64,000 nucleotides of DNA from Nostoc commune NIES-4072 (GTDB lineage Bacteria > Cyanobacteriota > Cyanobacteriia > Cyanobacteriales > Nostocaceae): NCBI RefSeq assembly GCF_003113895.1, contig NZ_BDUD01000002.1:496001-560000 (forward strand). The letters are read 5' to 3'. Below the pieces are notes generated by a model, which was not told the origin of the DNA, made no database searches, and saw nothing but the letters and a program-made list of their open reading frames with translations. A program made the position numbers and the translations under genes. How positions within the stretch are numbered: the stretch's first letter is position 1; each line of letters begins with the position of its first letter. This document shows, one piece after another, positions 15,678 through 54,060 of the stretch.

Positions 15678-15682
15678 ATCCT

Positions 15683-30031: not shown

Positions 30032-30036
30032 TTAAG

Positions 30037-34520: not shown

Positions 34521-34554
34521 ATCGAATGGCACTAAGAAAAGCCAAAACGCTTGT

Positions 34555-35823: not shown

Positions 35824-35958
35824 CCAAATTTTGCAGAAAAGCCCACCTAAAAAAGCTGATAGATAAAGAGAAGTACTTCACTACCTTTGATTTTGCCACT
35901 CTCCAAATGTACGGAGCTTTTTCAGAAATCAAATATTAGTCCTATATCAGGAAAAACA

Positions 35959-36408: not shown

Positions 36409-36420
36409 GTAGTAGTGTTT

Positions 36421-38085
36421 ATGGTAAAACCAGTAATTTTAACCGTCGATGATGATCCAGAGGTGCTGCAAGCAGTGTCACGAGATTTACGCTATCAGTA
36501 TGGTGATCGCTTCCGCATTATCCGGGCAGATTCCGGTATTGCTGCTCTGAATACGGTGCAGCAACTCAAATTGCGTAATGAACCAGTTGCCCTATTTTTA
36601 GTGGATCAAAGAATGCCCCAAATGGGTGGTGTGGAGTTTCTCGAACGGGCAAAAGACATCTTTCCTGATGCAAAACGTACTTTGCTGACGGCGTATGCAG
36701 ATACAGATGCTGCCATTAAGTCAATTAATAGTGCCAAACTTGATTATTATTTACTCAAGCCTTGGAATCCACCAGAAGAGCGGCTATATCCTGTTTTGGA
36801 TGATTTGCTAGATGACTGGTTATTGGCATTCCGCCCACCCTTTGAAGGGATTCGAGTCATTGGTAATCGCTGGTCGCCCTTTTCCCATCAGGTGAAAGAC
36901 TTCCTGGCGCGTAACCAAATTCCCTACAACTGGTTAGATATTGAACTAGAAGAGGATGCCGTAAAATTGGTGAAATACGCAGAAGCCAATGGCAGAGAGC
37001 AATTGCCCTTAGTGCTGTTTCCCGATGGCTCCCGATTAATTCAACCATCTAATTTAGAGATTGCTACTAAAATTGGACTGCAAACCCAGGCAGAGCGTCC
37101 GTTTTATGACTTGGCGATCATCGGTGCTGGCCCTGCGGGACTGGCAGCAGCCGTCTATGGCGCTTCTGAAGGATTGAATACTGTCTTAATTGAGCGTGAA
37201 GCACCAGGCGGACAAGCAGGCACGAGTTCACGCATTGAGAACTATCTGGGGTTTCCTGTTGGCTTGAGCGGCAACGATTTGGCAAGGCGGGCAGTCACTC
37301 AGGCGCGGCGATTTGGGGTAGAGATTCTCACTCCTCAAGCAGTAACTGGGGTTAGGCTGGAAGATCCTTATCGGGTTCTGGAATTGGTCGATGGCAGCGA
37401 AATTAGTTGTCATGCACTTTTAATTGCAACCGGCGTTTCCTACCGTTGGCTAAATATCCCAGGAGCCAAGAAGCTGACAGGAGCAGGAATTTACTACGGT
37501 GCTGCTATGACTGAAGCAATCACCTGTAGGAATGAGGAGATTTACTTGGTAGGCGGGGCAAATTCTGCTGGACAGGCAGCAATGTACTTTTCTAAGTATG
37601 CCAACAAAGTGATCATGCTGGTGCGGGGTGAATCGCTCTCATCCAGTATGTCGCAATACTTGATTGACCAGATTGCGGCTACTGAAAATATCAAAGTCTG
37701 CACAGGTTGCAGCGTTGTTGAAGTCAAGGGAGATGAACATTTAGAAGAAATTGTCATTGCCCATACCCAGACGGGACAAACTGAAACCGTCCCAACCCGA
37801 TCGCTTTTTATCTTTATCGGTGCCAGCCCCAAAACGGATTGGCTCGATGGCGTTATTCAACGCGATATTCAGGGGTTTATCATCACTGGGCCCGATTTGA
37901 TGCATAATGGCAAACCTTCTCAAGGTTGGCATTTGGAACGCTCTCCTTTCTTACTAGAAGCCAGTGTTCCTGGGATCTTTGCAGCCGGAGATGTGCGACA
38001 CGGGTCAACTAAGCGGGTGGCATCCAGTGTGGGTGAAGGTGCGATCGCTATTCAATTTGTTCACCGCTATCTAAGCAATGTTTAG
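36421..38085 (+). CDS. Response regulator / thioredoxin-reductase-like fusion
   Basis: About 554 residues (ATG 36421; GTG 36415 is in frame). Residues 1-125: CheY-like receiver with ILTVDDDPEV and phosphoacceptor Asp in LFLVDQRMP. Residues about 140-220: a thioredoxin/glutaredoxin-like strand-helix region (RWSPFSHQVKDFLARNQIPY) without a CXXC. Residues about 230-554: FAD/NAD(P) reductase with LAIIGAGPAGLAAA, LVGGANSAGQAA and GIFAAGDVR. The usual redox CXXC of thioredoxin reductase is replaced around YYGAAMTEA, so it cannot reduce thioredoxin in the normal way. The histidine kinase follows 31 bp downstream. It may sense NAD(P)H or flavin redox state under kinase control. Confidence 0.9.
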   Translation: MVKPVILTVDDDPEVLQAVSRDLRYQYGDRFRIIRADSGIAALNTVQQLKLRNEPVALFLVDQRMPQMGGVEFLERAKDIFPDAKRTLLTAYADTDAAIKSINSAKLDYYLLKPWNPPEERLYPVLDDLLDDWLLAFRPPFEGIRVIGNRWSPFSHQVKDFLARNQIPYNWLDIELEEDAVKLVKYAEANGREQLPLVLFPDGSRLIQPSNLEIATKIGLQTQAERPFYDLAIIGAGPAGLAAAVYGASEGLNTVLIEREAPGGQAGTSSRIENYLGFPVGLSGNDLARRAVTQARRFGVEILTPQAVTGVRLEDPYRVLELVDGSEISCHALLIATGVSYRWLNIPGAKKLTGAGIYYGAAMTEAITCRNEEIYLVGGANSAGQAAMYFSKYANKVIMLVRGESLSSSMSQYLIDQIAATENIKVCTGCSVVEVKGDEHLEEIVIAHTQTGQTETVPTRSLFIFIGASPKTDWLDGVIQRDIQGFIITGPDLMHNGKPSQGWHLERSPFLLEASVPGIFAAGDVRHGSTKRVASSVGEGAIAIQFVHRYLSNV

Positions 38086-38116: not shown

Positions 38117-39628
38117 ATGTTGTGTCTTGAAGATTTGATTAACTTAGACCCGTTTCAACAGCTTTCCAAAGAGCGATTGGAGTGGATGTGCGATCGCGCT
38201 CAAATATTTGAACTCCGTGCTGGAGAAGTCTTGGTGCATGAGGGAGACCTTGTAGATAACTTATTTATCCTAGTCAAAGGTAAAATCAACCTTACCCGTC
38301 GCAGTGAAGGAATTGAAATTCCCATCGGACAACACCAAGCTCCATCCTTTTTTGGTGAAATTTTCATCCTTACAGATGATCCTGTACATGTGACAGTACG
38401 GGCATTTACAGATTGTAACTTTTATCAAGTTAAGGGAGAGGACTTCCGTAAACTACTGCATGAGTGTCGCAATTTTGAGCGGATGGTCTTCCGCATTGTG
38501 GAGCGTCGGATCAGAGGAATAGAGTCCTTTATTCGGGGACGTGAAAAGATGGCAGCTTTGGGCACACTTGCTGCCGGTCTAGCTCATGAACTCAACAACC
38601 CAGCCGCAGCACTTGTTCGTGGTTTAGGGGAAATGCCAAGCGCTCTCTTGGAGCTACAACGAATGAGCTTAATTTATGGGCAATCCCATGTTGAAGAAGC
38701 CCATACTGAACAATGGTTAAAAGTGCGTGATCAAGGCTATGATGCGATTTTGCATAATCGTTTAGATCCGGTGACACTAAGCGATCGCGAAACTGTATTA
38801 TTGGAATGGTTAGAAGATTACGGTGTGAAGCAAGCATGGAAATTAGCGGAACCTTTAGCAGAAGGCGGCATTGAGCCGGAAACCCTAGAAAAGCTCACAG
38901 AACGTTGGCGCAACCATGACACAGAATTGCGAGAAATGAGATTGCAGTGGCTATCGCTCTCATTTGAAGTCATGTCGATGATTAAACATGGTTCGCGATC
39001 AGCTCAGAGGATTTCCGAACTTGTGCAAGCGATGAAGTCTTATAGTTATCTCGATCAAGGCATTCAGCAAGAAGTAAATATACATCAAGGCTTAGAAGAT
39101 ACGCTGCGATTATTTGCTCATAAACTCAAGTCCGGCATCCAAGTGCAACGCAATTATGATCAACATCTCCCTAAAATTTTTGCCTATGGTAGTGAACTCA
39201 ATCAAGTGTGGACGAACTTAATTGACAACGCTATTGATGCAATGGATGGTAAGGGACTGCTGGAAATTACAACTCAGCAAAGAGGTTGGACAAACGACAG
39301 TGCTGTTGGCGAACCTTCTCGAAGAGAAGACAATTGCTTTGCTCAGATTGACATTATTGACTCGGGCAGTGGAATTCCACCTGAAATTCAAACACGCATT
39401 TTTGAACCATTCTTCACGACCAAATCAGTGGGACGTGGTTCAGGACTCGGTTTGGAAACCGTTCGCCGGATTGTAGAGAATCGCCACCACGGTACACTCT
39501 CATTTGAATCCCAACCAGGCAGAACATGTTTCACTATTTGCTTGCCCTTCCCTTGTCAAATAAATGAGTCATTTGAGAAAAAAAGAATCCAAAATACAGA
39601 ATTTCAAATCGATTTGATAAACTCATAA
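38117..39628 (+). CDS. cNMP-binding-domain sensor histidine kinase
   Basis: 503 residues after AAGGAGG. The N-terminus (about 1-140) is a cyclic-nucleotide-binding-type domain (AGEVLVHEGDLVDNLFILVK; FFGEIFILTDDP). The H-box is GLAHELNNPAAA with His at about 156. The ATPase part has NLIDNAIDAM (N box), DSGSGIPPE (G1), FEPFFTTKSVG (F box) and GSGLGLETVRR (G2). No membrane helix, so cytosolic. It is co-transcribed with the response regulator fusion and most likely phosphorylates it. Residues about 394-403 (VGEPSRRED) come from a dispersed repeat inserted between the N and G1 boxes. Confidence 0.9.
   Translation: MLCLEDLINLDPFQQLSKERLEWMCDRAQIFELRAGEVLVHEGDLVDNLFILVKGKINLTRRSEGIEIPIGQHQAPSFFGEIFILTDDPVHVTVRAFTDCNFYQVKGEDFRKLLHECRNFERMVFRIVERRIRGIESFIRGREKMAALGTLAAGLAHELNNPAAALVRGLGEMPSALLELQRMSLIYGQSHVEEAHTEQWLKVRDQGYDAILHNRLDPVTLSDRETVLLEWLEDYGVKQAWKLAEPLAEGGIEPETLEKLTERWRNHDTELREMRLQWLSLSFEVMSMIKHGSRSAQRISELVQAMKSYSYLDQGIQQEVNIHQGLEDTLRLFAHKLKSGIQVQRNYDQHLPKIFAYGSELNQVWTNLIDNAIDAMDGKGLLEITTQQRGWTNDSAVGEPSRREDNCFAQIDIIDSGSGIPPEIQTRIFEPFFTTKSVGRGSGLGLETVRRIVENRHHGTLSFESQPGRTCFTICLPFPCQINESFEKKRIQNTEFQIDLINS
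39305..39329 (+). repeat. Dispersed Nostoc repeat inside the histidine kinase gene
   Basis: GTTGGCGAACCTTCTCGAAG followed by AGAAG is a variant of the repeat at 23966. It encodes VGEPSRRE in a surface loop of the ATPase domain and keeps the frame. Confidence 0.7.
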
Positions 39629-39836
39629 GTTTTCATATGAGGTTTTAGATGAGTTTTTGAGCCACCTTTAACCAAAAACAATGTTATAATAATCAGTAAT
39701 ATACTGAAATAAACACCCATAGTTTAGTTACGTCGGTAGATTTATTATCGGTATTTAATTGAGAATTATTTATTAGCCCCTAGACAGAATTGCCCCAGTT
39801 TCAACAACAGACTTTATACTTTATATGGAGAATAAC

Positions 39837-40181
39837 ATGGCATACAAAAATGCAGTTTTAGACGACAAAGAACTTCAAGAAAGTTTAAAGTCTATTAATC
39901 CCAAGTTTGGTGACTTTGTGACTCGTGTAGCAGGCGAAGCATGGGGTCTGCCATTAATTGATCAAAAAACTAAGGCTTTAATCACGATCGCAGTTGATAT
40001 TGCCAATCAAGACCATACAGGCCCAGGTAATCCTTTTGGAGCGCACGTGAGTATGGCTCTTAAACAAGGAGCCACTCGCCAAGAAATCGAGGAAGTTCTT
40101 TTATTCATGTGTGCTTATGCGGGATTCAATAAGGTCGCCGGTTGCTTCGGCACACTGAATGAGATTTGGAATTCTCTATAA
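39837..40181 (+). CDS. Carboxymuconolactone decarboxylase-like (CMD/AhpD) protein
   Basis: 114 residues from ATG 39837, chosen because GGAG lies at the right spacing. The fold markers are KFGDFVTRVAGEAWGLPLID, KTKALITIAVDIAN and EEVLLFMCAYAGFNKVAGC. The AhpD CXXC motif is absent, so it is CMD-like rather than an AhpD peroxidase partner. It is closely related to residues 1-115 of the fusion protein at 42092. In the sister arrangement this unit is fused to the EthD unit; here they are separate genes divided by 350 bp that include a degenerate MITE. Confidence 0.88.
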   Translation: MAYKNAVLDDKELQESLKSINPKFGDFVTRVAGEAWGLPLIDQKTKALITIAVDIANQDHTGPGNPFGAHVSMALKQGATRQEIEEVLLFMCAYAGFNKVAGCFGTLNEIWNSL

Positions 40182-40533: not shown

Positions 40534-42090
40534 ATGATGTCAGCAATCAGAAAGGCTGATTATGCCTTACGCGATCAAAATGGTGTAGCAGTCTTCTATG
40601 TTCTCTTATGGAAACGAAAGTCAATAACATTAGATCTATTCGATGACTACTGGAGAGACGTTCACGGCCCAGTTTGCGCCCGACTACCAGGGCAGCATCA
40701 ATACTGGCAGTTCCATTTGGCTCATAATCAGGGTGATTTATGGCCAACTATTGACGGCATCGAATACACCACTGGGTTTGAAGACCAGTTCGATGGCATT
40801 GCAGAATTAACCTTTGAGACAGAAGCCGACCGTCAAACATGGTTCAAAGCTGCTGCCATTTTGATGGATGATGAACACAATTTGTTCAGTAAGGCGATTG
40901 GATATAATACCATCCCTGGTAATTCCAAAACTTATGTTGATGGCATTCCCACGGGAGATCCAAACGGAGAACTGGGTATCCTGAAGTTTCATGTCATGGT
41001 CAAAAAAGCAGATGCCGTCAGTCTGCATGAGTTTCACAAATATATGACAGACAGCTTTGCTGCTGCTGTTGTCCAGAGTGACTCGGTTCTCAAGTTCCGA
41101 CTGCATCTGTTTGAAGAAGTAGATAATTCTCGTCCCGATGCTGCTGGAGTATCTCATTATGAACCTCCACATAAGCAGTATCAGGCAGCTTTTGAAATTG
41201 CATTTTCCAATCCTCTAGGAATGGAAAACTTCTTTGCTTCAAAAGAATATGCAAAAGCTGTAAAAAACCAAGCAAAGTATATCAAACAAATCAATCCATT
41301 TCCAGAGCGATCTGCTTACACTTTTGTCTACAACGGTCAGATAACATTAGCAGGTCAACGGAGTTCCACAGTGGCAGACCTGATCGTAAACCTTGGTGCA
41401 ACCAATCAATTAAAGGAGGATATAACTTCTCTTATGCTAGATCAAAAACTGGTCATTTCCAATTCCAATGGCTCTCAGAATGGTTCTCTTAATCATTCAC
41501 AAAATACTGCAAATAGTCCAACTAAGACTCGGAATAATTATTACAAAGATTTAGCAGCAGATTATTCTAGACCAGGACTTGTGACTCCTTATGTCGCCAA
41601 AAAACTCATAGAAGATGCCGAAAAGTATGTGGCGATGAAAGAAAAGAACCAGCCACAAATAGATTCTTATTATACTCTCAAACAAATTGAACAAGAAAAC
41701 AAAGAATGGTGGCCTACTCATTGCGAAGCATTGAGGCAGGGACGAGGCGATATCCTAACTGGTGAATATCGTGATGACTTGGTTTATTTTTGCCAAGATG
41801 GGCCTTATCAAGGCTTAGAACAACAAAAAGAGCGTGAGCAACATTGGTGGGCATTAATTGCCCAACCAGGTGTAACTATGTGTTGGCCAATCGTCATGTT
41901 TCATGGGGAAGTGACCTACTTTGAATGGAAGTGTGTAGATAATGAAACTAACGAAACACTTGCTAAAGGAAATGTCACATGGATGCGACGCGGACACAGA
42001 GGCGGATGTTATCTCAAAACTGAGCAATTGACTTTCTATCGAGATGTTTTTGCCCCCAATGGACTACTGAAATTGATCACCACAGCCTAA
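40534..42090 (+). CDS. Tandem EthD-domain protein with SnoaL-like C-terminal domain
   Basis: 518 residues. Two dimeric alpha/beta-barrel repeats are visible: VFYVLLWKRKSITLDLFDDY with HGPVCARLPG (about 20-130) and ILKFHVMVKKADAVSLHEFH with DSVLKFRLHLFEE (about 148-260), the EthD pattern. A Ser/Asn-rich linker (about 305-335) leads to an NTF2/SnoaL-like domain (EWWPTHCEALRQGRGDILTG; YFEWKCVDNET) at about 360-518. EthD-type proteins include polyketide cyclases and accessory proteins of ether degradation. The first ~300 residues are closely similar to residues 128-428 of the following fusion protein, but the C-terminal domain differs. The next gene starts 1 bp after the stop. Confidence 0.82.
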   Translation: MMSAIRKADYALRDQNGVAVFYVLLWKRKSITLDLFDDYWRDVHGPVCARLPGQHQYWQFHLAHNQGDLWPTIDGIEYTTGFEDQFDGIAELTFETEADRQTWFKAAAILMDDEHNLFSKAIGYNTIPGNSKTYVDGIPTGDPNGELGILKFHVMVKKADAVSLHEFHKYMTDSFAAAVVQSDSVLKFRLHLFEEVDNSRPDAAGVSHYEPPHKQYQAAFEIAFSNPLGMENFFASKEYAKAVKNQAKYIKQINPFPERSAYTFVYNGQITLAGQRSSTVADLIVNLGATNQLKEDITSLMLDQKLVISNSNGSQNGSLNHSQNTANSPTKTRNNYYKDLAADYSRPGLVTPYVAKKLIEDAEKYVAMKEKNQPQIDSYYTLKQIEQENKEWWPTHCEALRQGRGDILTGEYRDDLVYFCQDGPYQGLEQQKEREQHWWALIAQPGVTMCWPIVMFHGEVTYFEWKCVDNETNETLAKGNVTWMRRGHRGGCYLKTEQLTFYRDVFAPNGLLKLITTA

Positions 42091-42091
42091 G

Positions 42092-45000
42092 ATGACAGAT
42101 AATCGGGTGTACAAAAATGCGGTTTTAGATGATTTAGAACTACAAGCAGGTTTAAAAAGTATTAACCCGAAGTTTGGTGACTTTGTGATTCGTGTAGCTG
42201 GTGAAGCATGGGATCTGCCATTAATTGACCAAAAAACCAAGGCGCTGATGGCGATCGCAATTGATGTTGTCAATCAGAATCACAAAGGCCCCGGTAATCC
42301 TTTCGCAGCACATCTGGATATGGCTTTTAAACAGGGAGCTGCTTATGAGGAAATTGAGGAACTTCTTTTGTTCATGTGTGTTTATGCAGGATTTAATAAA
42401 GTCGCAAGCTGCTTCGGCACACTAAATAAGATTTTTGAGCAAAGTAGTGTTGAACTAAGGAATGCAGCAATGATATCAGCAATCAAAAAAGCCGATTATG
42501 CCATACGCGATCAAAATGGCACAGCAGTTTTCTACGTTCTGTTATGGAAACGAAAGTCAATAACGTTAGATTTATTCGATGACTACTGGAGAAATGTGCA
42601 TGGTCCTGTTTGTGCTAGACTACCAGGACAACATCAATACTGGCAGTTCCATTTGGCTAATAATCAGGGAGACTTGTGGCCAACTATTGAGGGTATTGAG
42701 TACGACTTACCACCAGAAGATCAGTTTGATGGCATTGCAGAATTAACCTTTGAGACAGAAGTTGACCGTCAAACTTGGTTTAAATCTGCGGCCATTCTCA
42801 TGGATGATGAGCGCAATATATTCAGTAAGGCGATTGGTTACATAACTAATTCTGGCAATTCTCAAACCTATATTGACAGTATCCCTACAGGAGCTCCCAA
42901 CGGAAACCTAAATGTGATTAAGTTCCACGTCATGGTAAAGAAATCTGATGCCGTGAGTGTAGAAGCTTTTCGCAGATATATGACAGACAGCTTTGCACCA
43001 GCTGTTGTCCAGAGTGATTCTGTTGTGAAATTCCGACTGCATTTGTTGGAAGAAGTAGATAATTCCCGTCCAGATGCGCCTGGGGTATCTCATTATGAAG
43101 CGCCAGAAAAGCAGTATCAAGCGGCCTTTGAAATTGCTTTTGCCAATCCTCTGGAGATGGAAACATTTTTCGCCTCAAAAGAATACGCTATTGCTGTTCA
43201 AGACCAGGCTAAATATGTCCAACAGATTCTACCATTTCCGGAACGAACTGCTTACACATTCGTTTACGAAAGCAAAATAACTCTAGCGGGTCAATGTAGT
43301 TCTAAGGTTGCAGATTTGATTATGAAAGTAGGTGCAACAAATCAACTTAAAGATGATATAGTTTCTCTGATGAACGGCACTCAGAATCAACAGAATGGGA
43401 AGTCGGGATTGGGGCATTATCTACAAGGTGTGCAACACTTTGGGATCACAGTTTATGATATGCCAAAATCCTTAGAGTTTTACCTCGAAGTACTAGGAGG
43501 TAAAGTCGCTATTGGTGGAGATGGATTTTACGGCGAAGCCTTGCACAATCTGCTCTTTCAAAAAGAGGAAGTTGAAGCGATAGAAAAGGGGATTGATCCG
43601 AAAGCTTTGGGTGTTGCTAACATTAGAGATGGTTCAGACATGGCTTTAGATGTCAGGTTCATTTCTTTTGGCAACACAGTCGTTGAAATCATTCATTTCC
43701 GAGATGCGAAATTAACGCTTGCTGCACCAAATGCTTTTGAAAAAATACCTTCTTCTGTTGGTTACACCAATGCACCGCACCTTTCTTTCTATGTGAAAGA
43801 TGATGTAGATATTGATGTCTTTGCAAAAGAATTGGAAGATGAATGTCAAAGACGAGGTTTAACTGAGGTAGTTGTTAACCGGATTGTCCGGGCCAACTCC
43901 GCAGAAGAAATGAAAAAACTTGCTCCCAAATTTGCTAAGACAGATTTTACTGACGATTTTGAAGGATGGGCATTATTCTACTGTAAAGGGCCAAACGGCG
44001 AACAGCTAGAGTTCAACCAAGTGACTCGGAAAGCCAAAGAAAACTTTACTAGAGCCGAAACAGAATACAACCAAGCTAATGGCACAAATTACTGGTTTTT
44101 AAATTCCCAAAAACCAAAATCAAATACTCAGGGACTGTACGCCACATATAGTATTCCTGTGAATGCTCCTTTGGAAACTGTTTGGGATGTTTTACTGGAC
44201 AAAATGCAAAACCCCCAACCATATATTCCCCATGTAGTTGAAGAATTTAAAATTTTAGAAAGATATAACAATGGCATTCTCCGTAAAATTAGAACACCGC
44301 GAATGCAGATGAAAGAAAAAGTCACCGTAGATGAGCAAGCTAAAAAAGTAATATTTACTCTCGTAGATCATCCACTTTTTACTGGTGAGTTGAGTAATCA
44401 GGTAACGCTACCTGCTAATCATAATTCTGGATCTTTACCGATTGTAACTTACACAATAGATTTGCAACCTACTAATGACAAAGCTCTGGAACAAGAGGAA
44501 GCTGAATGGTTTATTAAAGCTGCTCAACCAGAAGCGATCGCTCAAGCTGTCCACCATCTCAAAAATATCATTGAAAATCAAGTTAATCAGGAGAGTAATA
44601 CAATGATACTGGCACATTCACAAACATTTGTTGGGACAAAATCTGAAATCGTTAAACGAATGTTCCAAGCTGGCGAATCGATGAATGTGGAAAACTTCAT
44701 CAAGTTTTACACCGATGATGCTCACTACCAATTCAGCAACTTCCCCGTTGCTTATGGACCGCAAGGTATTAGAGACTCTTCTGTTGATTTCTTGGCAACA
44801 GTTGCAAAAGTTTACCACCACATTAAGAATATGTGGGAAGTCGGAGATACAGTTATCTGTGAAATGGATGTTACCTACATTCGCCATGACGGCAAAGTGT
44901 TTACGCTTCCTTGCTGCGACACTATTGTTTTCAAAGGTGATAAAGTTCAGGAATTACGAATTTATATGAATATCGATCCGGTATTCGTATTTGATAATAA

Positions 45001-45400
45001 TGAAACACAGTCTAAACCTGCTAGTTCTAGTGGTTCCTTGACGAAAACGCTGGAGAAAATGTATGCGGCTCTCCACGCCGAAAATTGGGATGAATTTATG
45101 ACATTCTTCACTCCCAATCTCCTCTACAAAATTGGTGCAAATGATCCTGTGATTGGGCCAGAAGCCTGTCGTGATCTTTTAAGTCATATCTATAAAACTC
45201 TGAAATTGACAACTCACAATACTCGCGGCATGTGGGAAATTGGCAATACGATTATTTTGGAAATGGATGCTAACTATATCCATAAAGTAGACAAGCGATT
45301 CGTTCAGGTTCCTTGTACCGATATCTATCGTTTTGATGGCGATAAGATTTATGAATGGCGAGTTTATCCAGATGCTTCTCAGACTGGTGTCCGCATTTAA
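42092..45400 (+). CDS. Six-part fusion: CMD, EthD x2, VOC, SRPBCC, SnoaL x2
   Basis: 1102 residues without a break. Approximate order: CMD-like 1-118; two EthD repeats 135-410; VOC/glyoxalase-like 440-670 (GVQHFGITVYDMPKSLEFYL, then LSFYVKDDVDI and NGEQLEFNQV with a probable metal Glu); SRPBCC/DUF1857-like 680-835 (ATYSIPVNAPLETVWDVLLD; KEKVTVDEQAKKVIFTLVD); SnoaL-like 838-965 (MNVENFIKFYTDDAHYQF; NMWEVGDTVICEMDVTY); second SnoaL-like 979-1102 (ALHAENWDEFMTFFTPN; RGMWEIGNTIILEMDANY). The two SnoaL parts are paralogous. No signal or membrane segment. The first 430 residues duplicate the two genes just upstream. All parts are small-molecule enzyme folds, so this looks like a one-chain assembly line. 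Substrate unknown. Confidence 0.85.
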   Translation: MTDNRVYKNAVLDDLELQAGLKSINPKFGDFVIRVAGEAWDLPLIDQKTKALMAIAIDVVNQNHKGPGNPFAAHLDMAFKQGAAYEEIEELLLFMCVYAGFNKVASCFGTLNKIFEQSSVELRNAAMISAIKKADYAIRDQNGTAVFYVLLWKRKSITLDLFDDYWRNVHGPVCARLPGQHQYWQFHLANNQGDLWPTIEGIEYDLPPEDQFDGIAELTFETEVDRQTWFKSAAILMDDERNIFSKAIGYITNSGNSQTYIDSIPTGAPNGNLNVIKFHVMVKKSDAVSVEAFRRYMTDSFAPAVVQSDSVVKFRLHLLEEVDNSRPDAPGVSHYEAPEKQYQAAFEIAFANPLEMETFFASKEYAIAVQDQAKYVQQILPFPERTAYTFVYESKITLAGQCSSKVADLIMKVGATNQLKDDIVSLMNGTQNQQNGKSGLGHYLQGVQHFGITVYDMPKSLEFYLEVLGGKVAIGGDGFYGEALHNLLFQKEEVEAIEKGIDPKALGVANIRDGSDMALDVRFISFGNTVVEIIHFRDAKLTLAAPNAFEKIPSSVGYTNAPHLSFYVKDDVDIDVFAKELEDECQRRGLTEVVVNRIVRANSAEEMKKLAPKFAKTDFTDDFEGWALFYCKGPNGEQLEFNQVTRKAKENFTRAETEYNQANGTNYWFLNSQKPKSNTQGLYATYSIPVNAPLETVWDVLLDKMQNPQPYIPHVVEEFKILERYNNGILRKIRTPRMQMKEKVTVDEQAKKVIFTLVDHPLFTGELSNQVTLPANHNSGSLPIVTYTIDLQPTNDKALEQEEAEWFIKAAQPEAIAQAVHHLKNIIENQVNQESNTMILAHSQTFVGTKSEIVKRMFQAGESMNVENFIKFYTDDAHYQFSNFPVAYGPQGIRDSSVDFLATVAKVYHHIKNMWEVGDTVICEMDVTYIRHDGKVFTLPCCDTIVFKGDKVQELRIYMNIDPVFVFDNNETQSKPASSSGSLTKTLEKMYAALHAENWDEFMTFFTPNLLYKIGANDPVIGPEACRDLLSHIYKTLKLTTHNTRGMWEIGNTIILEMDANYIHKVDKRFVQVPCTDIYRFDGDKIYEWRVYPDASQTGVRI

Positions 45401-45646: not shown

Positions 45647-45964
45647 ATGATTACGATTAGCGAAAAAGCTGGTTTACTGACTGTAATCAACGTCTTCACT
45701 GTTGAAAATCATCAACAGCAGCAACGTTTAGTAGATCACCTCGTAAGTAACATCGAAAAAGCTAAGAAGCAAGAAGGCTTCATTTCTGTTAATATCCACA
45801 AAAGTTTGGATGGTACACGAGTCGTAAACTATGCCCAGTGGAGCAGCAAAGAAGCACTGGACACAGCTCTTAAAAGCCAAGAATTTATGGCTCCCGTGGA
45901 GAAGGCTGTAGAATTCCCTCACGATTTTCACTTGTACGAAGTTGTTTATACAACACAGCCATAG
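45647..45964 (+). CDS. Antibiotic biosynthesis monooxygenase (ABM) family protein
   Basis: 105 residues after AAGGAACTAAA. The ferredoxin-like fold is visible in LLTVINVFTVENHQQQQRLV, EGFISVNIHKSLDGTRVVNY and AQWSSKEALDTALKSQEF. Such proteins are cofactor-free oxygenases or detoxifying enzymes acting on quinones and polyketides. The following MFS gene starts 31 bp later. Its placement after the CMD/EthD/VOC fusion suggests it acts on the same compound. Confidence 0.85.
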   Translation: MITISEKAGLLTVINVFTVENHQQQQRLVDHLVSNIEKAKKQEGFISVNIHKSLDGTRVVNYAQWSSKEALDTALKSQEFMAPVEKAVEFPHDFHLYEVVYTTQP

Positions 45965-45995
45965 CGATCGCTTCCCAAATGACACAATAAATCCT

Positions 45996-47423
45996 ATGGT
46001 CACTAAGACTGCATTAGATTCCCGTCGCTGGATAGCACTTATCCTACTCTGTGCCACACAGTTTATTTTTGTGCTTGACGTGTCGATCATCAACATTGCT
46101 CTTCCCTCAATCCAACAAGCGTTCAATTTCTCGCAACAGAACCTCCAATGGGTGATCAATGCTTACACACTTGCTTTTGGGGGTTTTCTCCTCCTGGGAG
46201 GACGAGCAGGAGACTTACTCGGTCACCGCCGCGTTTTTATATTTGGACTTAGCCTCTTTGCCCTTGCTTCCCTGATAGGCGGTTTCGCGCAGTCTGGAAC
46301 TATTTTAATTGCAGCGCGTAGCGCTCAGGGTCTAGGTGGCGCTCTTAGCTCTCCGACGGCATTGTCGATTCTCACCATGACCTTTAGTGAAGGCTCAGAG
46401 CGGAACCGCGCGTTAGGTGTTTGGGGGGCTACGGGTGCATCAGGTGGCGCAGCTGGTGTACTTCTGGGCGGACTAATTACTGGTCTGCTCGGTTGGGAAT
46501 GGGTGCTATTTGTCAATGTGCCGATCGCGGGATCAGCAGCCCTTTTAGCTCCAATATTCCTGAGTGAGAGCGTCACTAACAACAAGTCTCGGCAATTCGA
46601 TTTAGCTGGCGCTTTCTGTAGTACAACAGGATTGATCCTGCTTGTGTTTACAATCGTCAACGCTGAAGGACACTTGGCACGGACACTTGGATTTCTCTTT
46701 TTGTGTGTATCGCTGTTTCTTGGCTTCATGTTCATTGAGCAGCGCTCACCTGCACCACTAGTGCCGTTACGAATCTTTCGTCTGCGTAATCTCACTGGAG
46801 CTAACCTAATCACTCTGGTTCACGGCACTGGGCCGTTGTGTACCTTGTTCTTTATCTCACTCTACCTCCAGCAAGTGTTAGGTTTATCAGCGCTCAACTC
46901 AGGACTGGCCTTCTTACCTTTTGCACTGGCGGGTGGTATTTCCTCTGGATTGGCCTCGGTGCTGGTGAATCGGTTTGGTGTCAAGCCTGTTTTGACAGTC
47001 GGGATGCTCTTAATGGCCATTGGTCTGGTACTCTTTGCCCAGGTTTCTGTCGGTGGCAGCTATGTAATCCATGTGCTACCTGCTTCGCTTGTTGTTGGTG
47101 CTAGTGCTGGTTTCTCCTTTGTGCCGTTAACTATTGCTGCTTTCATGTCGGTCAAAGATGAAGACGCTGGACTAGCCTCTGGGTTACTAGCTACTAGTCA
47201 GCAGGTAGGTGCTGCTATAGTTTTGGCGTTGCTAGTGGCGATCGCCAGCGCTCACTCTAAAGGAATTATTGCCGCGCAAGGTAGCTCGCCAGCAGTATTG
47301 GCAAGGGCTTTGACCGAAGGCTTTCAATCTGCCTTCTACCTCGGCGCTGGTTTAGTGGCACTTGGTGCGATCGTTGCGTTTTTAGTGATCCAACAACAAA
47401 CCAAACACTTAAATCATGATTGA
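45996..47423 (+). CDS. MFS exporter, DHA2 (EmrB/QacA) type
   Basis: 475 residues from the ATG at 45996. About 14 membrane helices; motif A-like loop GGRAGDLLGHRRVFIFG after helix 2, motif C-type GATGASGGAAGVLLGG in helix 5, and FVLDVSIINIALPSIQ in helix 1 as usual for this family. DHA2 proteins export drugs and hydrophobic metabolites by proton antiport across the inner membrane. An in-frame ATG at 45942 overlaps the ABM gene and is less likely. Confidence 0.9.
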   Translation: MVTKTALDSRRWIALILLCATQFIFVLDVSIINIALPSIQQAFNFSQQNLQWVINAYTLAFGGFLLLGGRAGDLLGHRRVFIFGLSLFALASLIGGFAQSGTILIAARSAQGLGGALSSPTALSILTMTFSEGSERNRALGVWGATGASGGAAGVLLGGLITGLLGWEWVLFVNVPIAGSAALLAPIFLSESVTNNKSRQFDLAGAFCSTTGLILLVFTIVNAEGHLARTLGFLFLCVSLFLGFMFIEQRSPAPLVPLRIFRLRNLTGANLITLVHGTGPLCTLFFISLYLQQVLGLSALNSGLAFLPFALAGGISSGLASVLVNRFGVKPVLTVGMLLMAIGLVLFAQVSVGGSYVIHVLPASLVVGASAGFSFVPLTIAAFMSVKDEDAGLASGLLATSQQVGAAIVLALLVAIASAHSKGIIAAQGSSPAVLARALTEGFQSAFYLGAGLVALGAIVAFLVIQQQTKHLNHD

Positions 47424-47581: not shown

Positions 47582-47965
47582 ATGGCAAGATCAAACAGAC
47601 TAAACAAGATCGCATTGTGGAGTGTCACTACTCTCTTAGCTGCGGCTTTCCTGATGTTCGGAACCTTAAAGCTTACAGGCGCTCAACAACTCGTAGCAGA
47701 ATTTATTAAGTGGGGTTATCCCACCTGGTTTCGTTTCTTTGTTGGTGTGGCTGAAATTGGCGGGGCGGTGCTGCTGCTGTTTCCACGCACTGTGACGCTG
47801 GCAAGTGTCGGTCTGGGCATATTAATGGCTGGCTGTGTGTTCTCGCATCTCAAGGCTGGGGAAGGGCCACAGGCGATCCCGGCGCTTGTGCTACTGACTC
47901 TGCTTACTGTGGTTGGCTACGCCCGCCGTTCTTACGTGACGGGGTTTAGAAGTCAGATTGATTAG
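47582..47965 (+). CDS. DoxX-family membrane protein
   Basis: 127 residues with four membrane helices. DoxX markers are FLMFGTLKLTG in helix 1, FVGVAEIGGAVLLLFPRTVT in helices 2-3 and GLGILMAGCVFSHLKAGEG before the last helix. A good AGGGAGGTTATTCTC site precedes the ATG. DoxX proteins are often linked to thiol or oxidative stress defence, and the role here is not defined. It stands alone, with 158 bp upstream. Confidence 0.88.
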   Translation: MARSNRLNKIALWSVTTLLAAAFLMFGTLKLTGAQQLVAEFIKWGYPTWFRFFVGVAEIGGAVLLLFPRTVTLASVGLGILMAGCVFSHLKAGEGPQAIPALVLLTLLTVVGYARRSYVTGFRSQID

Positions 47966-48216: not shown

Positions 48217-48894
48217 ATGACATCTACACCTTTAATAAATAACGGTAGAATTGGCGACCCAATTAAGGGGAAAATTGGCGTCCTAATTGAGGAACATTTC
48301 GATCAAACTGAATTTCGCAGATTCAACGAATATTTTCCCACTCAAGGCTATCAAGTCGAGTATATTTCTCATCTCTGGGATAATCCAGAGTTAACCTTTG
48401 GGGCAAACCCTGATACTGGTGTAGTTGAGGATCATGTTACAGTTACAACAGAAATCAATGATGTTGCTCCGGCAGATTACAAGGGAATAATTTGTATTGG
48501 TGCCTATGCTACAGATCGTCTGAGATATCAGGTTTCTGTAAAGAAAGGTCAGAAAAATCAAGCTCCGGCAGTTGTATTTCTGGGAAAGGCTCTACAGATA
48601 GATGGTTTGAAAATAGGAACAATCTGTCATAGCTTGTGGCTGTTCTGCGCTGATTCAGATTTAATCAAAGGTCGCAAAGTTACTTGTGCCCACAACATCA
48701 TCTGTGATGTTGAAAATGCTGGTGGTGAAGTTATCTATGATGGGGATGCAACTGCTGATTTGGTGATAGATGACAACCTGATTTCAGCAAAACATCCTGG
48801 AGTTGTCGATGAATTTATGGAAGTTTTTGTAGCAGAGATTCAAAAGCAGGAAAAAATGCAGAAACTCCCAGTGGGTAAATCATCATTTGTGTGA
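48217..48894 (+). CDS. DJ-1/PfpI-family protein
   Basis: 225 residues. GKIGVLIEEHFDQTEF gives the conserved Glu near the start, and the nucleophile elbow is IGTICHSLW with Cys at about 143. CAHNIICDVENAGGEVIYD follows, as in class I glutamine amidotransferase-like stress proteins. Members act as glyoxalases, deglycases or chaperones; activity cannot be chosen from sequence. The protein has a ~25-residue extension at each end compared with short DJ-1 forms. Confidence 0.85.
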   Translation: MTSTPLINNGRIGDPIKGKIGVLIEEHFDQTEFRRFNEYFPTQGYQVEYISHLWDNPELTFGANPDTGVVEDHVTVTTEINDVAPADYKGIICIGAYATDRLRYQVSVKKGQKNQAPAVVFLGKALQIDGLKIGTICHSLWLFCADSDLIKGRKVTCAHNIICDVENAGGEVIYDGDATADLVIDDNLISAKHPGVVDEFMEVFVAEIQKQEKMQKLPVGKSSFV

Positions 48895-49006: not shown

Positions 49007-50836
49007 ATGGATCACATGAGCTTTTCATTTTCTGACACCATTGCTGGGTACGTCACTGACTTTAACCGTAGCGAAAAAAGCTTTGGAATCAAGACATCAG
49101 ATGGACGGAAATTTCAGGCTTACCTGACTCCAACCACCTATGGCCGGATTACCCAAAACTTACAGGAACCTTACAACGACTGTACCCAACGCCTTGCAGA
49201 GATGCTAACCCCTGGTCAGCCTGTGTTTGCCTACGGTATTTTCTACCCACAGGGGGAAGGGTACAAATTTGAAGTTAAGTCCTTTGTCTTTCCTGGAGAT
49301 GCTCCCAGTGTATATCGGCATGAAGAGCCGGATTGGTGGGTCAAGCAAGTGCGTTCAATTGCTGATAGTTACCTCTATTGGCAGTTCAATTATCCCGAAA
49401 ACGAAATAGATTATCGGCAATATCGGACTTTTCTAAGGGTAACTGGTGTCAAAAAGCGCGAAGATGATTACCTGCAAGAAACCGACACTGTTTCCCGCTT
49501 AGTTTATGGTTTTGCCTCAGCCTACTTGATGACGGGCGAAGACCGCTTTCTAGAAGCTGCTGAAAAAGGCACTGAATATCTGCGTCAGCACATGCGGTTT
49601 TATGACCCTGATGAAAACCTGATTTACTGGTATCACGGCATTAAGGTAACGGGCAATCGTGAGCAAAAACTCTTAACCTCTGAGTTTAGCGATGATTACG
49701 ACGCTATCCCGGCATACGAGCAAATTTATGCTTTGGCAGGCCCGATTCAAACTTACCGGATTACTGGGGATCAGCGCATTCTCAAAGATGCCGAGATGAC
49801 TGTAGATTTATTTGACAAATTCTTCTTGGATAAAGAAGGCGCTGGCTATTTTTCCCACATTGACCCCATCACCCTCGATCCACGTGCTGAGTCACTAGGT
49901 AACAACCGCGCTCGCAAGAACTGGAACTCCGTTGGAGATCACGCTCCAGCTTATCTGATCAACCTGTGGCTGGCAACTGGCGAACAGAAATATGCCGATA
50001 TGCTGGAGTATACCTTTGATGCGATCGCTAAATATTTCCCAGACTACGACAACAGCCCCTTTGTCCAAGAAAAGTTCCATGAAGATTGGAGCCACGACAC
50101 AACTTGGGGCTGGCAGCAAAACCGCGCTGTCATCGGGCATAATCTGAAAATTGCCTGGAACCTCATGCGGATGCAAAGTCTCAAACCCAAAGATCAGTAT
50201 GTGGCTTTGGCGGAAAAAATTGCCTCCCTCATGCCCAAAATAGGTAGTGACCAGCAGCGTGGTGGCTGGTACGACGTTATGGAGCGCGTATTAGACGAAG
50301 GGGAAGAACAACACCGCCTCGTTTGGCACGATCGCAAAGCTTGGTGGCAGCAGGAACAAGCTATCTTAGCTTACCTGATCCTAAATGGCATCACTGAGAA
50401 TCCAGAATATTTGCGTCATGCTCGTGAAGCCGCAGCCTTCTATAATGCCCACTTCCTTGACCATGAAGATGGCGGCATTTATTTCAACGTCTTGGCAAGC
50501 GGGCTACCCTTCTTGATGGGTAATGAGCGATTTAAAGGTAGTCACTCAATGAGCGGTTATCATTCAACTGAACTGTGTTATCTGGCTTCAGTTTATACTA
50601 ATCTGCTGTTCACTAAACAGCCAATGGACTTTTACTTCAAACCTCTACCTGGAGCCTTTAAGGATAATATTCTACGGGTGTCACCAGATATTCTCCCGCC
50701 CGGTAGTGTAAAGATTAATGCTTGTTGGCTTAACGAAGAACCATATAACAATTTTGACGCTGATGCCCTGACGGTTAAACTGCCGGATACGAAAGAACAA
50801 GTGAAAGTCAAAGTTCAAATCGTCCCTAATCAGTGA
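49007..50836 (+). CDS. AGE-fold (alpha/alpha)6-barrel protein with N-terminal OB-like domain
   Basis: 609 residues after TGGAGTTAACCTC. Residues 10-100 look like a small beta-barrel (GYVTDFNRSEKSFGIKTSDG; PVFAYGIFYPQGEGYKFEVK), not usual in this family. From about 115 on the helical barrel begins (YLMTGEDRFLEAAEKGTEYL; DHAPAYLINLWLATGEQKYA; RAVIGHNLKIAWNLMRMQ; AWWQQEQAILAYLILNG). GHNLKIAWN and AWWQQEQA carry the His and Glu residues found in N-acylglucosamine 2-epimerases and cellobiose epimerases. It probably isomerises or hydrolyses a sugar. The STAS gene follows after 24 bp. Confidence 0.75.
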   Translation: MDHMSFSFSDTIAGYVTDFNRSEKSFGIKTSDGRKFQAYLTPTTYGRITQNLQEPYNDCTQRLAEMLTPGQPVFAYGIFYPQGEGYKFEVKSFVFPGDAPSVYRHEEPDWWVKQVRSIADSYLYWQFNYPENEIDYRQYRTFLRVTGVKKREDDYLQETDTVSRLVYGFASAYLMTGEDRFLEAAEKGTEYLRQHMRFYDPDENLIYWYHGIKVTGNREQKLLTSEFSDDYDAIPAYEQIYALAGPIQTYRITGDQRILKDAEMTVDLFDKFFLDKEGAGYFSHIDPITLDPRAESLGNNRARKNWNSVGDHAPAYLINLWLATGEQKYADMLEYTFDAIAKYFPDYDNSPFVQEKFHEDWSHDTTWGWQQNRAVIGHNLKIAWNLMRMQSLKPKDQYVALAEKIASLMPKIGSDQQRGGWYDVMERVLDEGEEQHRLVWHDRKAWWQQEQAILAYLILNGITENPEYLRHAREAAAFYNAHFLDHEDGGIYFNVLASGLPFLMGNERFKGSHSMSGYHSTELCYLASVYTNLLFTKQPMDFYFKPLPGAFKDNILRVSPDILPPGSVKINACWLNEEPYNNFDADALTVKLPDTKEQVKVKVQIVPNQ

Positions 50837-50860: not shown

Positions 50861-51301
50861 ATGGATATTAATATCAAGACACTCCAAGTAACAGCAATGG
50901 AAGCGGCTGTTAAGGTAGATGTCAATACTACACCTCCAATCCAAAAAGAAATCAGTGCCCTACAAATTCAACCAGTATCCGTAATCGAAATGATCGGTGA
51001 TGTAGATAGTAGTACTGCACCTTTAGTTCAAAAGCAAGTTTTGCCACTAGTCCAACCAGGGAGCCAGATTCTTCTAGATATGACTAAAGTCCCTTATATG
51101 TCTAGTGCCGGTTTGCGGTTGTTACTGTCGCTGTACCGACTAGTCTTAAGTCAAAACGGACAGCTGTTGCTGGTGGGGGTTGCCGAAGAAATTAAGGACA
51201 CCATGTCCATTACTGGCTTTCTCGACTTTTTTCAAATCAGTGACACCCTTGATTCAGGATTAAAAGCTCTCAATTTCAAGCTTCACGTTTTTTCCACTTA
51301 G
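50861..51301 (+). CDS. STAS-domain anti-sigma factor antagonist (RsbV-like)
   Basis: 146 residues. A ~45-residue N-terminal extension precedes the STAS fold (VSVIEMIGDVDSSTAPLVQ; ILLDMTKVPYMSSAGLRLLL). MSSAGLR carries the Ser phosphorylated by RsbW-type kinases. It should act in a partner switch with the kinase at 59257 and the phosphatase at 54061. It sits between the AGE enzyme and glgX. Confidence 0.88.
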   Translation: MDINIKTLQVTAMEAAVKVDVNTTPPIQKEISALQIQPVSVIEMIGDVDSSTAPLVQKQVLPLVQPGSQILLDMTKVPYMSSAGLRLLLSLYRLVLSQNGQLLLVGVAEEIKDTMSITGFLDFFQISDTLDSGLKALNFKLHVFST

Positions 51302-51474: not shown

Positions 51475-53598
51475 ATGGAGCTAGAAAGAATAGACATTCA
51501 TCCAACCCACACCTACGGCAACTTCAAGCTGCGTGTCGGTCGTCCATTGTCCCCTGGAGCTACTTTAGTGCCGGGAGGAGTTAATTTCTCGATATATTCA
51601 CGGTATGCTAAATCCTGTACCTTAGTGCTATTCAAAAAGAATGCCCCGGAACCGATGGCGGAAATTCTCTTTCCGAAAGAGTTTCGGATTGGAAATGTCT
51701 ATAGCATGATCGTATTTGACTTGGATTACGAAAATATTGAATACGGCTACCGCATGGACGGGCCTTTCAACCCTAGTGAAGGTCACTGGTTTGATTCTGG
51801 TAAAATTCTTCTAGACCCCTACGCTAAAGTCATCAGTGGTAGGGATATTTGGGGAGAAACGCCTGACTGGAATAACATCTACCAACATCGAGGGCGTCTT
51901 GCCTTTGACGATTTTGACTGGGAAAATGACTGTCCTCTGGAAATCCCACCGGAGGATCAGATTATTTATGAGATGCACGTCCGCAGCTTTACCCGTCATC
52001 CTTCCTCTGGAGTCAAGCATCCAGGAACATTTGCTGCTATCCGCGAAAAAATTTCCTATCTCAAAGAGCTAGGCATCAACAGTGTTGAACTGATGCCTAT
52101 CTATGAATTCGATGAATTTGAAAACAGTCGCCCTAACCCGCAAACCGGGGAACTGTTAATGAATTATTGGGGTTATAGTACCGTCGGCTTCTTTGCTCCC
52201 AAGGCTGGCTATGCGGCTACAGGCAAATTCGGGATGCAAGTTGATGAACTCAAAACCCTAGTTAAAGAATTACATAAAAATGGCATTGAGGTAATTCTGG
52301 ATGTTGTCTTCAACCATACGGCGGAAGGAAACGAGCATGGCCCGACAATTTCGTTCCGGGGGATCGACAACCAAACCTACTACATGCTAACGCCGGATGG
52401 GTACTACTTTAACTTCAGTGGCACTGGTAACACGCTCAACTGTAACAACCCAGTTGTTCGCCATATGGTGCTTGATTGTCTGCGCTACTGGGCCGCTGAG
52501 TATCACATCGACGGCTTCCGATTTGACCTAGCTTCGATTCTCGGTCGTGACCCTTGGGGTGCGCCAATGGCTAACCCGCCTTTGCTAGAAGCTTTGGCAT
52601 TTGACCCAATTCTGGCAAAATGCAAACTCATTGCTGAGGCTTGGGATGCAGGGGGTCTCTACCAAGTTGGTTCCTTCCCAGCTTTTGGCCGCTGGGCTGA
52701 GTGGAACGGCAAGTATCGCGACGGCATTCGCAAATTCCTCAAAGGAGAGCCAGGTCGGGTAGGAGATATGGCACAGCGACTACAAGGTTCACCAGACTTG
52801 TATGCTTGGGCAGGTCGTGCGCCAGCCACATCAATTAATTTCATCACTTGTCACGACGGTTTTACCCTCGCCGACCTAGTTTCTTTTAACCACAAGCACA
52901 ACGAGGCTAACGGGGAAAATAACAACGACGGTGGCAATGATAACGACAGCTGGAACTGTGGGGCAGAAGGATGGACGGACGATCCGAGTATCAATGCTCT
53001 GCGGCAGCGACAGATCAAAAATGCCGTGGCTATCTTAATGGTCAGCCAGGGAGTGCCAATGATCCTCATGGGCGATGAGGTGGCCCGAAGTCAAAAAGGC
53101 AACAACAATGCCTATTGCCACGACAATCAACTTAACTGGATGGACTGGACGCTGTTGGAGTCCAATAAAGACTTATTTCAGTTTTTCAAACACTGCATCG
53201 CCTTTCGCAACGCTCACCCAGTACTGAGAAATTCGTGGCACTTCCGTAATCAAGACTATGTAGGTAGTGATTATGCTGATATCACCTGGCATGGCATCCA
53301 AGCATGGAATGCTGACTGGTCTGACTCCAGTCGCACTCTCGCTTTTATGCTTTGTGGAAAGCACGCAAAGGAGGGTACTGTTGACGACAATTACATTTAC
53401 GTAGCTATGAATATGCATCATCAAGCTAACTGGTTTGAAATTCCAGGATTGCCAAATTCAATGAAGTGGCATGTGTTTGCCAACACTGGTGTCACTCCAC
53501 CATTGGATTGTTGGAAACCTGGCACGGAACCTGTGCTGGAGAATCAGTACGGATTACTCATGGGCGATCGCTCTGTAGTCATTCTGGTTGGTAAATGA
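51475..53598 (+). CDS. glgX: Glycogen debranching enzyme (GlgX, GH13)
   Basis: 707 residues after AGGAGAAGGC. An N-terminal CBM48-type region (PLSPGATLVPGGVNFSIYSR) is followed by the GH13 barrel: DVVFNHTAEGN (region I), GFRFDLASILG (region II with nucleophile Asp), IAEAWDAGGLY (region III with acid Glu) and FITCHDGFTLAD (region IV). It hydrolyses alpha-1,6 branches of glycogen limit dextrin in the cytosol. A gene flanked by two STAS genes is unusual and hints at co-control of glycogen use with the stress switch. Confidence 0.93.
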   Translation: MELERIDIHPTHTYGNFKLRVGRPLSPGATLVPGGVNFSIYSRYAKSCTLVLFKKNAPEPMAEILFPKEFRIGNVYSMIVFDLDYENIEYGYRMDGPFNPSEGHWFDSGKILLDPYAKVISGRDIWGETPDWNNIYQHRGRLAFDDFDWENDCPLEIPPEDQIIYEMHVRSFTRHPSSGVKHPGTFAAIREKISYLKELGINSVELMPIYEFDEFENSRPNPQTGELLMNYWGYSTVGFFAPKAGYAATGKFGMQVDELKTLVKELHKNGIEVILDVVFNHTAEGNEHGPTISFRGIDNQTYYMLTPDGYYFNFSGTGNTLNCNNPVVRHMVLDCLRYWAAEYHIDGFRFDLASILGRDPWGAPMANPPLLEALAFDPILAKCKLIAEAWDAGGLYQVGSFPAFGRWAEWNGKYRDGIRKFLKGEPGRVGDMAQRLQGSPDLYAWAGRAPATSINFITCHDGFTLADLVSFNHKHNEANGENNNDGGNDNDSWNCGAEGWTDDPSINALRQRQIKNAVAILMVSQGVPMILMGDEVARSQKGNNNAYCHDNQLNWMDWTLLESNKDLFQFFKHCIAFRNAHPVLRNSWHFRNQDYVGSDYADITWHGIQAWNADWSDSSRTLAFMLCGKHAKEGTVDDNYIYVAMNMHHQANWFEIPGLPNSMKWHVFANTGVTPPLDCWKPGTEPVLENQYGLLMGDRSVVILVGK

Positions 53599-53639
53599 GA
53601 TTGGTCATCAGTTAAAAGTAAATGATAAAGGACAAGATT

Positions 53640-53978
53640 ATGGCTTTCAACGCAACACTAGAAACAAGCAAGGGTATCGCTAAAATTACTTTAGCTGGAG
53701 AGTTGGATTCAATTTCTGCACCAATTTTCCAAAAAGAGGTAGAAAATGCAGCTACGGAACATCCAAGACATCTCGTTCTAATGATGCAAGACCTAGAATA
53801 TATATCCAGTGCAGGTCTGCGGGTACTCATATTCATTAAGCAAAAGATGGGTGTTGATACTGACATCTATGTTGTTGGCATTCAGGAGATGGTATTAGAC
53901 ACCCTTGAGAAAACTGGATTTGACCAAAGTGTGATTTTGGTGGATGAATATGACCAAGACAAGATAGCAAAAGTCTAA
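53640..53978 (+). CDS. STAS-domain anti-sigma factor antagonist (second RsbV-like)
   Basis: 112 residues from ATG 53640 (MAFNATLET). STAS markers: IAKITLAGELDSISAPIFQ, then LVLMMQDLEYISSAGLRVLI with the phospho-Ser in ISSAGLR. It is 82 bp upstream of the RsbU-type phosphatase, its probable activator. A longer start at 53622 is possible. Confidence 0.88.
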   Translation: MAFNATLETSKGIAKITLAGELDSISAPIFQKEVENAATEHPRHLVLMMQDLEYISSAGLRVLIFIKQKMGVDTDIYVVGIQEMVLDTLEKTGFDQSVILVDEYDQDKIAKV

Positions 53979-54060
53979 GGTCAGTTGTTAGTTTTTGGTT
54001 GTGAGAAATCTGGGACTAACAACTAAGTTGCTACTAGTTTCATTACTTAGGATTAAGAGC

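Follow-up and report, generated by a model that had tools for sequence, protein, structure and literature searches.

A seven-domain fusion protein encoded in an icfG-type gene cluster of Nostoc commune NIES-4072

The described system closest to the locus analyzed here is the icfG operon of Synechocystis (slr1852-slr1862), a single salt-repressed operon with AGE, STAS, GlgX and IcfG genes (PMC8670252). In passages of the published reports, Slr1861 is described as an anti-SigC factor and as the kinase of Slr1856 and Slr1859, with IcfG dephosphorylating Slr1856; icfG mutants are reported to fail in low carbon with glucose (PMC12329169). Among the front genes, slr1853 is annotated as CMD and, together with slr1854, shows ratios of about 1.6-2.7 under ethanol (PMC3564720), slr1854 is named as a butanol-induced general stress protein (PMC3726282), and Slr1852 is termed "hypothetical" (PMC5341163). 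These passages cover the kinase, the phosphatase and the sigma-factor links, and assign no chemistry to the front genes slr1852, CMD, slr1854 and AGE. Here, we compare this operon with a 64,000-nucleotide stretch of Nostoc commune NIES-4072 (contig NZ_BDUD01000002.1, positions 496,001 to 560,000; hereafter the window, whose numbering is used throughout, with two dots joining the ends of + strand features), in which one gene at 42092..45400 encodes a fusion of seven domains in 1102 residues.

The open reading frame (ORF) is uninterrupted, with zero internal stops, and single-copy in the 8.2-Mb genome, where it lies on a contig of 806,781 bases. Pfam places seven domains of five folds in the order CMD-EthD-EthD-VOC-SRPBCC-SnoaL-SnoaL, with matches over the curated cut-offs to SnoaL_2 (two, 5e-26), EthD (two, 3e-15), SnoaL (5e-10), AtaL (1e-8), CMD (1.5e-7) and Glyoxalase/VOC (7e-5; 23.6 bits against a cut-off of 20.6). 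The single-chain fusion seen by the initial annotation is therefore real, and its domain calls beyond CMD and EthD (VOC, AtaL, SnoaL_2) stand; its count of six domains does not. From the N-terminus, the chain comprises a CMD domain (residues 26-108, 42167..42415; PF02627), a first EthD domain that retains the conserved His170 (residues 156-244, 42557..42823; PF07110), a second EthD domain in which, by eye, Phe replaces that histidine (42950..43219; PF07110), a VOC module (residues 438-680, 43403..44131), an SRPBCC/AtaL domain with an aromatase/cyclase-like fold (44138..44626; PF08982), and two SnoaL/NTF2-like domains, the first assigned by PF12680 and fold comparison (44627..44986) and the second by Pfam, profile alignment and fold comparison (45017..45397). 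The whole genome holds four EthD matches, all over the Pfam cut-off, and all four lie in this protein and in the product of the gene just upstream.

That upstream partner gene (40534..42090; Pfam and sequence comparison) encodes EthD-EthD-NTF2u, and its EthD part is 78% identical to residues 106-430 of the fusion; a separate CMD gene (39825..40181; Pfam) is 74% identical to residues 1-117. The initial annotation had described the first 430 residues as a duplicate of separate CMD and EthD genes, with fused and unfused forms side by side: the duplication and the juxtaposition are confirmed, with the amendment that the EthD neighbor is itself fused. NTF2u is our label only, for a highly conserved module of 184 residues whose fold is not established (partner residues 335-518, 41536..42087); it is missing from the 1102-residue protein and forms a separate gene in many icfG-type clusters. 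The stop of the partner gene stands one base ahead of the start of the fusion, a gap that suggests translational coupling; among the 30 loci with both genes, the gap is 1-2 bases in 13, and the two genes are far apart in 2.

A GTDB scan produced 35 loci; 79 loci, the window included, were annotated, a set later enlarged to 96 loci, 90 of them distinct (L numbers denote loci and G numbers genomes). EthD and VOC share one frame in 32 of these 90, window included. Thirteen of the 32, again with the window, have the full order CMD-EthD2-VOC-SRPBCC-SnoaL2 (EthD2 being the EthD pair), 8 have the same order without an SRPBCC match, 5 are CMD-EthD2-VOC-SnoaL, and 6 are of other kinds, some of them truncated where the contig ends (L010, L110); since L078 and L110 belong to one genome, 32 loci are not 32 genomes. 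The remaining architectures among the 90 are EthD2-NTF2u (35), EthD2 alone (22), EthD2-SnoaL-SnoaL (6), EthD2-SRPBCC-SnoaL (2) and EthD2-SnoaL (2). An order-wide scan of 291 genomes gave some match in 71 and an EthD-VOC fusion in 15, leaving out G159, whose parts stand in separate frames (L088); surroundings were examined for 49 of the 71, our own genome included, the other 22 having single-domain matches only. The recurrence of the fusion is thus beyond chance. The literature searched for EthD with CMD, SnoaL, cyanobacteria or the operon, with most subscription journals outside its coverage, contained no description of this fusion; the architecture whose frequency and prior characterization the initial annotation had asked about is recurrent, with no characterization found.

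Ratios of nonsynonymous to synonymous substitution (dN/dS) over the whole protein were 0.118, 0.122, 0.113 and 0.122 against L001, L002, L003 and L009, four of 19 relatives aligned, with several dS values saturated. Judging from these ratios, the fused protein is under purifying selection, which rules out decay of the gene in the window. An assembly artefact is ruled out, since several genera share this order, one of them represented by a complete chromosome (HT-58-2, L001). In L002, from a Nostoc desertorum metagenome-assembled genome (MAG), an in-frame stop interrupts the CMD part of the fusion gene (L002:11589-14831). The fusions of 14 loci (L005, L006, L008, L012, L013, L014, L016, L018, L072, L074, L077, L078, L081, L082) carry a conserved insert of 66-70 residues with the motif HFAEH..PKW..GP.W between both SnoaL domains, which has no Pfam match in L005 and is replaced by a 17-residue linker in the window.

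By gene content, the conserved context of the fusion is an icfG-type carbon/sigma-factor operon. Among the 32 fusion loci, the most constant neighbors are EthD2-NTF2u (30), separate CMD (28), DJ-1 (26), AGE (25), STAS (24) and GlgX (24), followed by SpoIIE (12) and RsbW (7), with counts lowered by contig and fetch ends. The window cluster holds the CMD, DJ-1/PfpI (48217..48894; Pfam), AGE-family epimerase-like (49007..50836) and GlgX glycogen debranching (51475..53598; TIGR02100 over cut-off) genes of this core. Its partner-switch set is complete, with two STAS anti-sigma-factor antagonists (50861..51301 and 53622..53978), a GAF-SpoIIE phosphatase of RsbU/IcfG type (53995..55542) and an RsbW-type kinase/anti-sigma factor (59257..59700; Pfam HATPase_c_2, with RsbW models below cut-off). 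These genes match slr1853 (CMD), slr1855 (AGE), slr1856 and slr1859 (STAS), slr1857 (GlgX), slr1860 (IcfG) and slr1861 (kinase) of Synechocystis; slr1854, which from its position we take to be of DJ-1 type, presumably has its counterpart here too. Unlike the Synechocystis operon, the window has the EthD2-NTF2u and seven-domain fusions and no separate NTF2u gene, and adds ABM, MFS, DoxX and multicopper oxidase genes. The operon type is already known; what is new is the fused form.

Separate-gene forms in other genomes indicate that the fusion has been put together largely from genes of one cluster, and this is the strongest evidence that its parts share one process. In nine loci (L101-L109), NTF2u and CMD are separate genes, with no EthD in the stretch; DJ-1 and AGE adjoin them in 7 of the 9, the pair stands alone in L103 and L104, and in L108 NTF2u comes first, then CMD, DJ-1, AGE, STAS and GlgX. 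Five genomes (L114-L118, two of which are also represented by the shorter pieces L065 and L066) have a separate VOC gene close to NTF2u, DJ-1 and AGE, and CMD is absent from the stretch. Locus L128 holds CMD, NTF2u, VOC and EthD2 as separate genes within 20 kb, together with RsbW, STAS, GlgX, STAS, AGE and DJ-1, VOC and EthD2 being about 4-7 kb from NTF2u. Unfused CMD, NTF2u and EthD2 are neighbors in Symploca (L024, L025), as they are in one Acidobacteria and one Nitrospirae MAG (L029, L032), and separate SnoaL genes adjoin several fusions (e.g., L071, L073, L076). The Nostoc NIES-3756 plasmid locus on pNOS3756_1 shares CMD, EthD2-NTF2u, EthD2-SRPBCC-SnoaL, DJ-1, AGE, STAS and GlgX with the window; it differs in its shorter fusion and in having a VOC-family gene (which the VOC profile of the fusion does not match), DoxX and an NTF2-family gene as separate genes.

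The NTF2u module itself belongs to a well-conserved family. The window copy is at least 65% identical to the 24 other copies aligned (of 73 distinct), those of Acidobacteria and Nitrospirae included, and the lowest identity in a phylum search was 59%, the module being present in 25 of 386 phylum genomes. DJ-1 or AGE lies in the stretch of 20 of the 24 NTF2u genomes whose surroundings were examined (G470 left out). For the window module, Pfam gave no match even at an E limit of 10, nor did PDB sequences at a limit of 1; 25 members gave scattered Pfam matches to five families, with 1-2 members each and a best E of 0.014, and a structure prediction of EthD2-NTF2u (mean predicted local distance difference test, pLDDT, 38) was not used.

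Examination of individual residues and folds suggests which modules may act as enzymes. The VOC ligands H449, E532, H563 and E640 are invariant in 41 of 41 aligned sequences, so that the H/E/H/E set is complete and a metal site is predicted; VOC, with this full site, CMD and the first EthD domain look catalytic. EthD family membership follows from Pfam matches over cut-off. The structure model of the fusion (mean pLDDT 54, predicted template modeling score 0.31), one of the checks proposed at the outset, is usable at about residues 683-1100, so that the CMD, EthD and VOC assignments rest on sequence. Where usable, it matches the aromatase/cyclase fold for the SRPBCC domain, and the SnoaL tandem aligns with an Lsd19-like two-domain unit over 243 residues at a root-mean-square deviation (rmsd) of 4.9. 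The role of the second EthD domain looks structural, as one half of an intramolecular dimer, and a similar pairing of the two SnoaL domains is possible.

Several more specific identities were rejected. 4-Carboxymuconolactone decarboxylase (PcaC) falls because both CMD sequences score far under the NCBIfam equivalog cut-off of 155.7 bits (45.3 for the separate gene), and AhpD peroxidase because the CMD domain of the fusion has Cys96 and Cys107 and no CxxC motif. For limonene-1,2-epoxide hydrolase, whose catalytic residues we take to be Asp101-Arg99-Asp132, profile alignments of both SnoaL domains show no Arg/Asp at the Arg99 and Asp132 positions. An iota-carbonic anhydrase match from Foldseek has a TM score of 0.10-0.20 and an rmsd of 27-28, and the idea of an lti2 cold/osmotic gene was dropped, the term not being found in the literature searched.

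On this evidence, the fused gene probably arose by domain accretion within an icfG-type operon that has expanded, and it would encode tethered enzymes that act on one metabolite. Separate operon modules (CMD, VOC and the EthD pair) would have been joined with SRPBCC and SnoaL domains into one chain, made beside and probably coupled with the EthD2-NTF2u partner. One after another, the tethered enzymes would act on a single small reactive metabolite (an organic acid, a carbonyl or an aromatic compound) linked to glycogen or sugar breakdown, and the STAS/SpoIIE/RsbW switch would couple this route to carbon or stress status; we infer that the benefit of tethering would lie in channeling of the shared substrate. 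Several points weigh against this interpretation. The CMD domain of the fusion scores only 25.7 bits against PcaC and is strongly diverged in L072, L074, L078 and L110, and the structure model is unreliable before about residue 680. Many relatives have no SRPBCC or second SnoaL match, so these cannot all be obligatory steps, and with relatives that do without them an enzyme role for SRPBCC and SnoaL would be tentative. Separate SRPBCC genes occur only in stretches without core genes (L119, L120), four of the 24 NTF2u genomes (G489, G582, G083, G117) have neither DJ-1 nor AGE in the stretch, and NTF2u would be the slr1852 counterpart by gene position in L108 rather than by sequence comparison. 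The loci were also gathered by similarity to the proteins of the window, so 32 of 90 is not a frequency.

The initial annotation had proposed a compact pathway that would process one small molecule and export it. Domains of this kind are known from aromatic polyketide tailoring, and in the window an ABM and an MFS gene come after the fusion, which speaks for a stand-alone specialized-metabolite pathway of polyketide or aromatic type, its product exported by the DHA2-like transporter. The SRPBCC domain of the fusion is like TcmN/ZhuI aromatase/cyclases and AtaL, and its SnoaL pair resembles the polyether epoxide hydrolases Lsd19 and MonBI, at 10-12% identity and high rmsd in a comparison by fold rather than by catalytic residues. 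However, no polyketide synthase, and no ketosynthase, appears by Pfam among the 42 window ORFs scanned (38 of the 48 of at least 130 residues, and 4 smaller), the SRPBCC module has no match in many relatives, and the steady neighbors are icfG-type genes. A close exporter counterpart (88%) stands near the fusion in L002 alone among the 35 GTDB-scan loci, where stretch ends may hide others. We therefore regard an export pathway as unlikely.

A detoxification or repair role, in which VOC (glyoxalase-like), DJ-1, CMD and AGE clear reactive carbonyl or quinone by-products in sugar breakdown and stress, is a specific form of the explanation we prefer and a tentative possibility. The intact VOC metal ligands and the presence of DJ-1 in 26 of the 32 fusion loci favor it, as do the induction of slr1854 by butanol and the ratios of slr1853 and of slr1854 under ethanol noted above. 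However, detoxification is not known as a typical setting for SRPBCC or SnoaL domains; the VOC profile matches to solved enzymes span just the first 30-70 residues, the CMD domain lacks the AhpD CxxC, and the Synechocystis operon is among those repressed by salt. Most doubtful is the idea that the chain does little catalysis and mainly feeds the partner switch as a scaffold or ligand sensor: the gene does sit among sigma-factor switch genes, with a second EthD domain that lacks the histidine of the first and SnoaL domains that lack epoxide hydrolase residues, but the catalytic-type residues of CMD, the first EthD domain and VOC are nearly invariant.

The paired copies may differ in their histories. 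Identical-codon runs between partner and fusion within one genome, taking the two EthD2 pieces together, reach 161 codons in L003, 111 in L016, 54 in L007 and 45 in L081, while CMD third-position identity in these four loci is 49-58%. The EthD2 tree joins the two copies of one genome as sisters, strongly supported in L003, L009, L016 and L076 and less so in L007, whereas the CMD copies listed divide mainly into fused and separate ones, with 5 label changes where shuffling gives a mean near 23 (few columns). The simplest reading is local EthD2 gene conversion in a subset of lineages; for pairs of moderate identity, repeated independent fusion is a possible alternative, and most loci have no long identical EthD2 run. 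In the window, EthD identity is 85% and 77% and the longest identical run is 11 codons, indicating no recent conversion event. Its CMD pair has the highest third-position identity among the loci compared (68%), and its separate CMD groups among fused CMDs at a weak fork in the tree; some CMD exchange may have occurred here, contrary to a clean fused/separate picture.

Gene order in the window is a response regulator fused to a thioredoxin reductase-like domain (36415..38085; in 6 of the 32 fusion loci), a cyclic-nucleotide-binding histidine kinase (38117..39628; 8 of 32), CMD, EthD2-NTF2u, the fusion, ABM, MFS, DoxX, DJ-1, AGE, STAS, GlgX, STAS, GAF-SpoIIE, a multicopper oxidase, a 394-residue protein and RsbW. 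The ABM monooxygenase-like gene (45647..45964; PF03992, 1.2e-9) and the MFS transporter (45942..47423; PF07690, 4e-51) bear out the initial assignments, with the reservation that the transporter, DHA2-like and not conserved with the fusion, scores 212 bits, just below the 230 cut-off of the NCBIfam DHA2 model. ABM, separate or on a SnoaL protein, occurs in 13 of the 32 loci, any MFS match in 6, and the DoxX-like membrane protein (47582..47965; Pfam) in 1, by a profile built from the window gene that missed an annotated DoxX gene in L068. ABM is fused to Nif11-SnoaL(-SnoaL) in L016, L077, L078, L081 and L082. More generally, a Nif11 domain (PF07862), which we take to be of the type found in leaders of ribosomally synthesized and post-translationally modified peptides, here stands on an enzyme-like chain: it is N-terminal on a SnoaL-SnoaL gene downstream of the fusion in many loci (among them L005:13760-14938, L014:10363-11541, L016:14766-16286 and L082:12420-13928), sometimes with ABM at the end, with Pfam values of 3e-11 to 1.2e-10 in the four loci tested and similarity in the others. 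Relatives of the multicopper oxidase (55766-57508) lie in stretches L018, L019, L023 and L121.

The cluster may lie on a large plasmid or mobile island: transposase genes flank both sides, with a MobA/VirD2-type relaxase piece (28750-31897, 59955-61172, 61839-62339), the contig is 807 kb, and the three same-genus genomes of the order-wide scan lack the genes. In a plasmid collection, 20 records match, none of them with a single site that covers 80% of the fusion. A DAHP synthase fragment consisting of the middle part only (35887-36408), immediately ahead of the response regulator gene, looks like a remnant, and a weak SnoaL_2-like protein, below cut-off, lies on the minus strand near the cluster (34167-34634). 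Elsewhere, an Old-yellow-enzyme-type protein, two RoxA-like cytochrome c proteins, a 426-residue protein and a GMC oxidoreductase stand in a row (9931-17269), and a caspase-like/nSTAND1 gene, perhaps split, occupies two overlapping frames (838-2627). Rfam gave no match in 33000-62000. A defense library had no match for the fusion, the partner gene or the response regulator, and just three weak ones across the cyclic-nucleotide-binding part of the kinase.

Fusions that join icfG-type modules and add EthD and SnoaL domains provide Rosetta-stone evidence for one process in the front genes of these operons. More speculatively, they could mark an undescribed cyanobacterial route in the metabolic half of icfG-type operons, in which a reactive metabolite derived from glycogen or sugar would be converted to a product with a link to the partner switch of the sigma factor. 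In Nostocales and others this route would have been welded into one chain that contains its own dimer pairs and whose EthD module, in certain lineages, is kept matched to the partner gene by gene conversion. NTF2u, a family without assignment, is worth a structure. If the parts do serve one process, the question of what the front genes of icfG-type operons do may become testable through the substrate of one purified chain.

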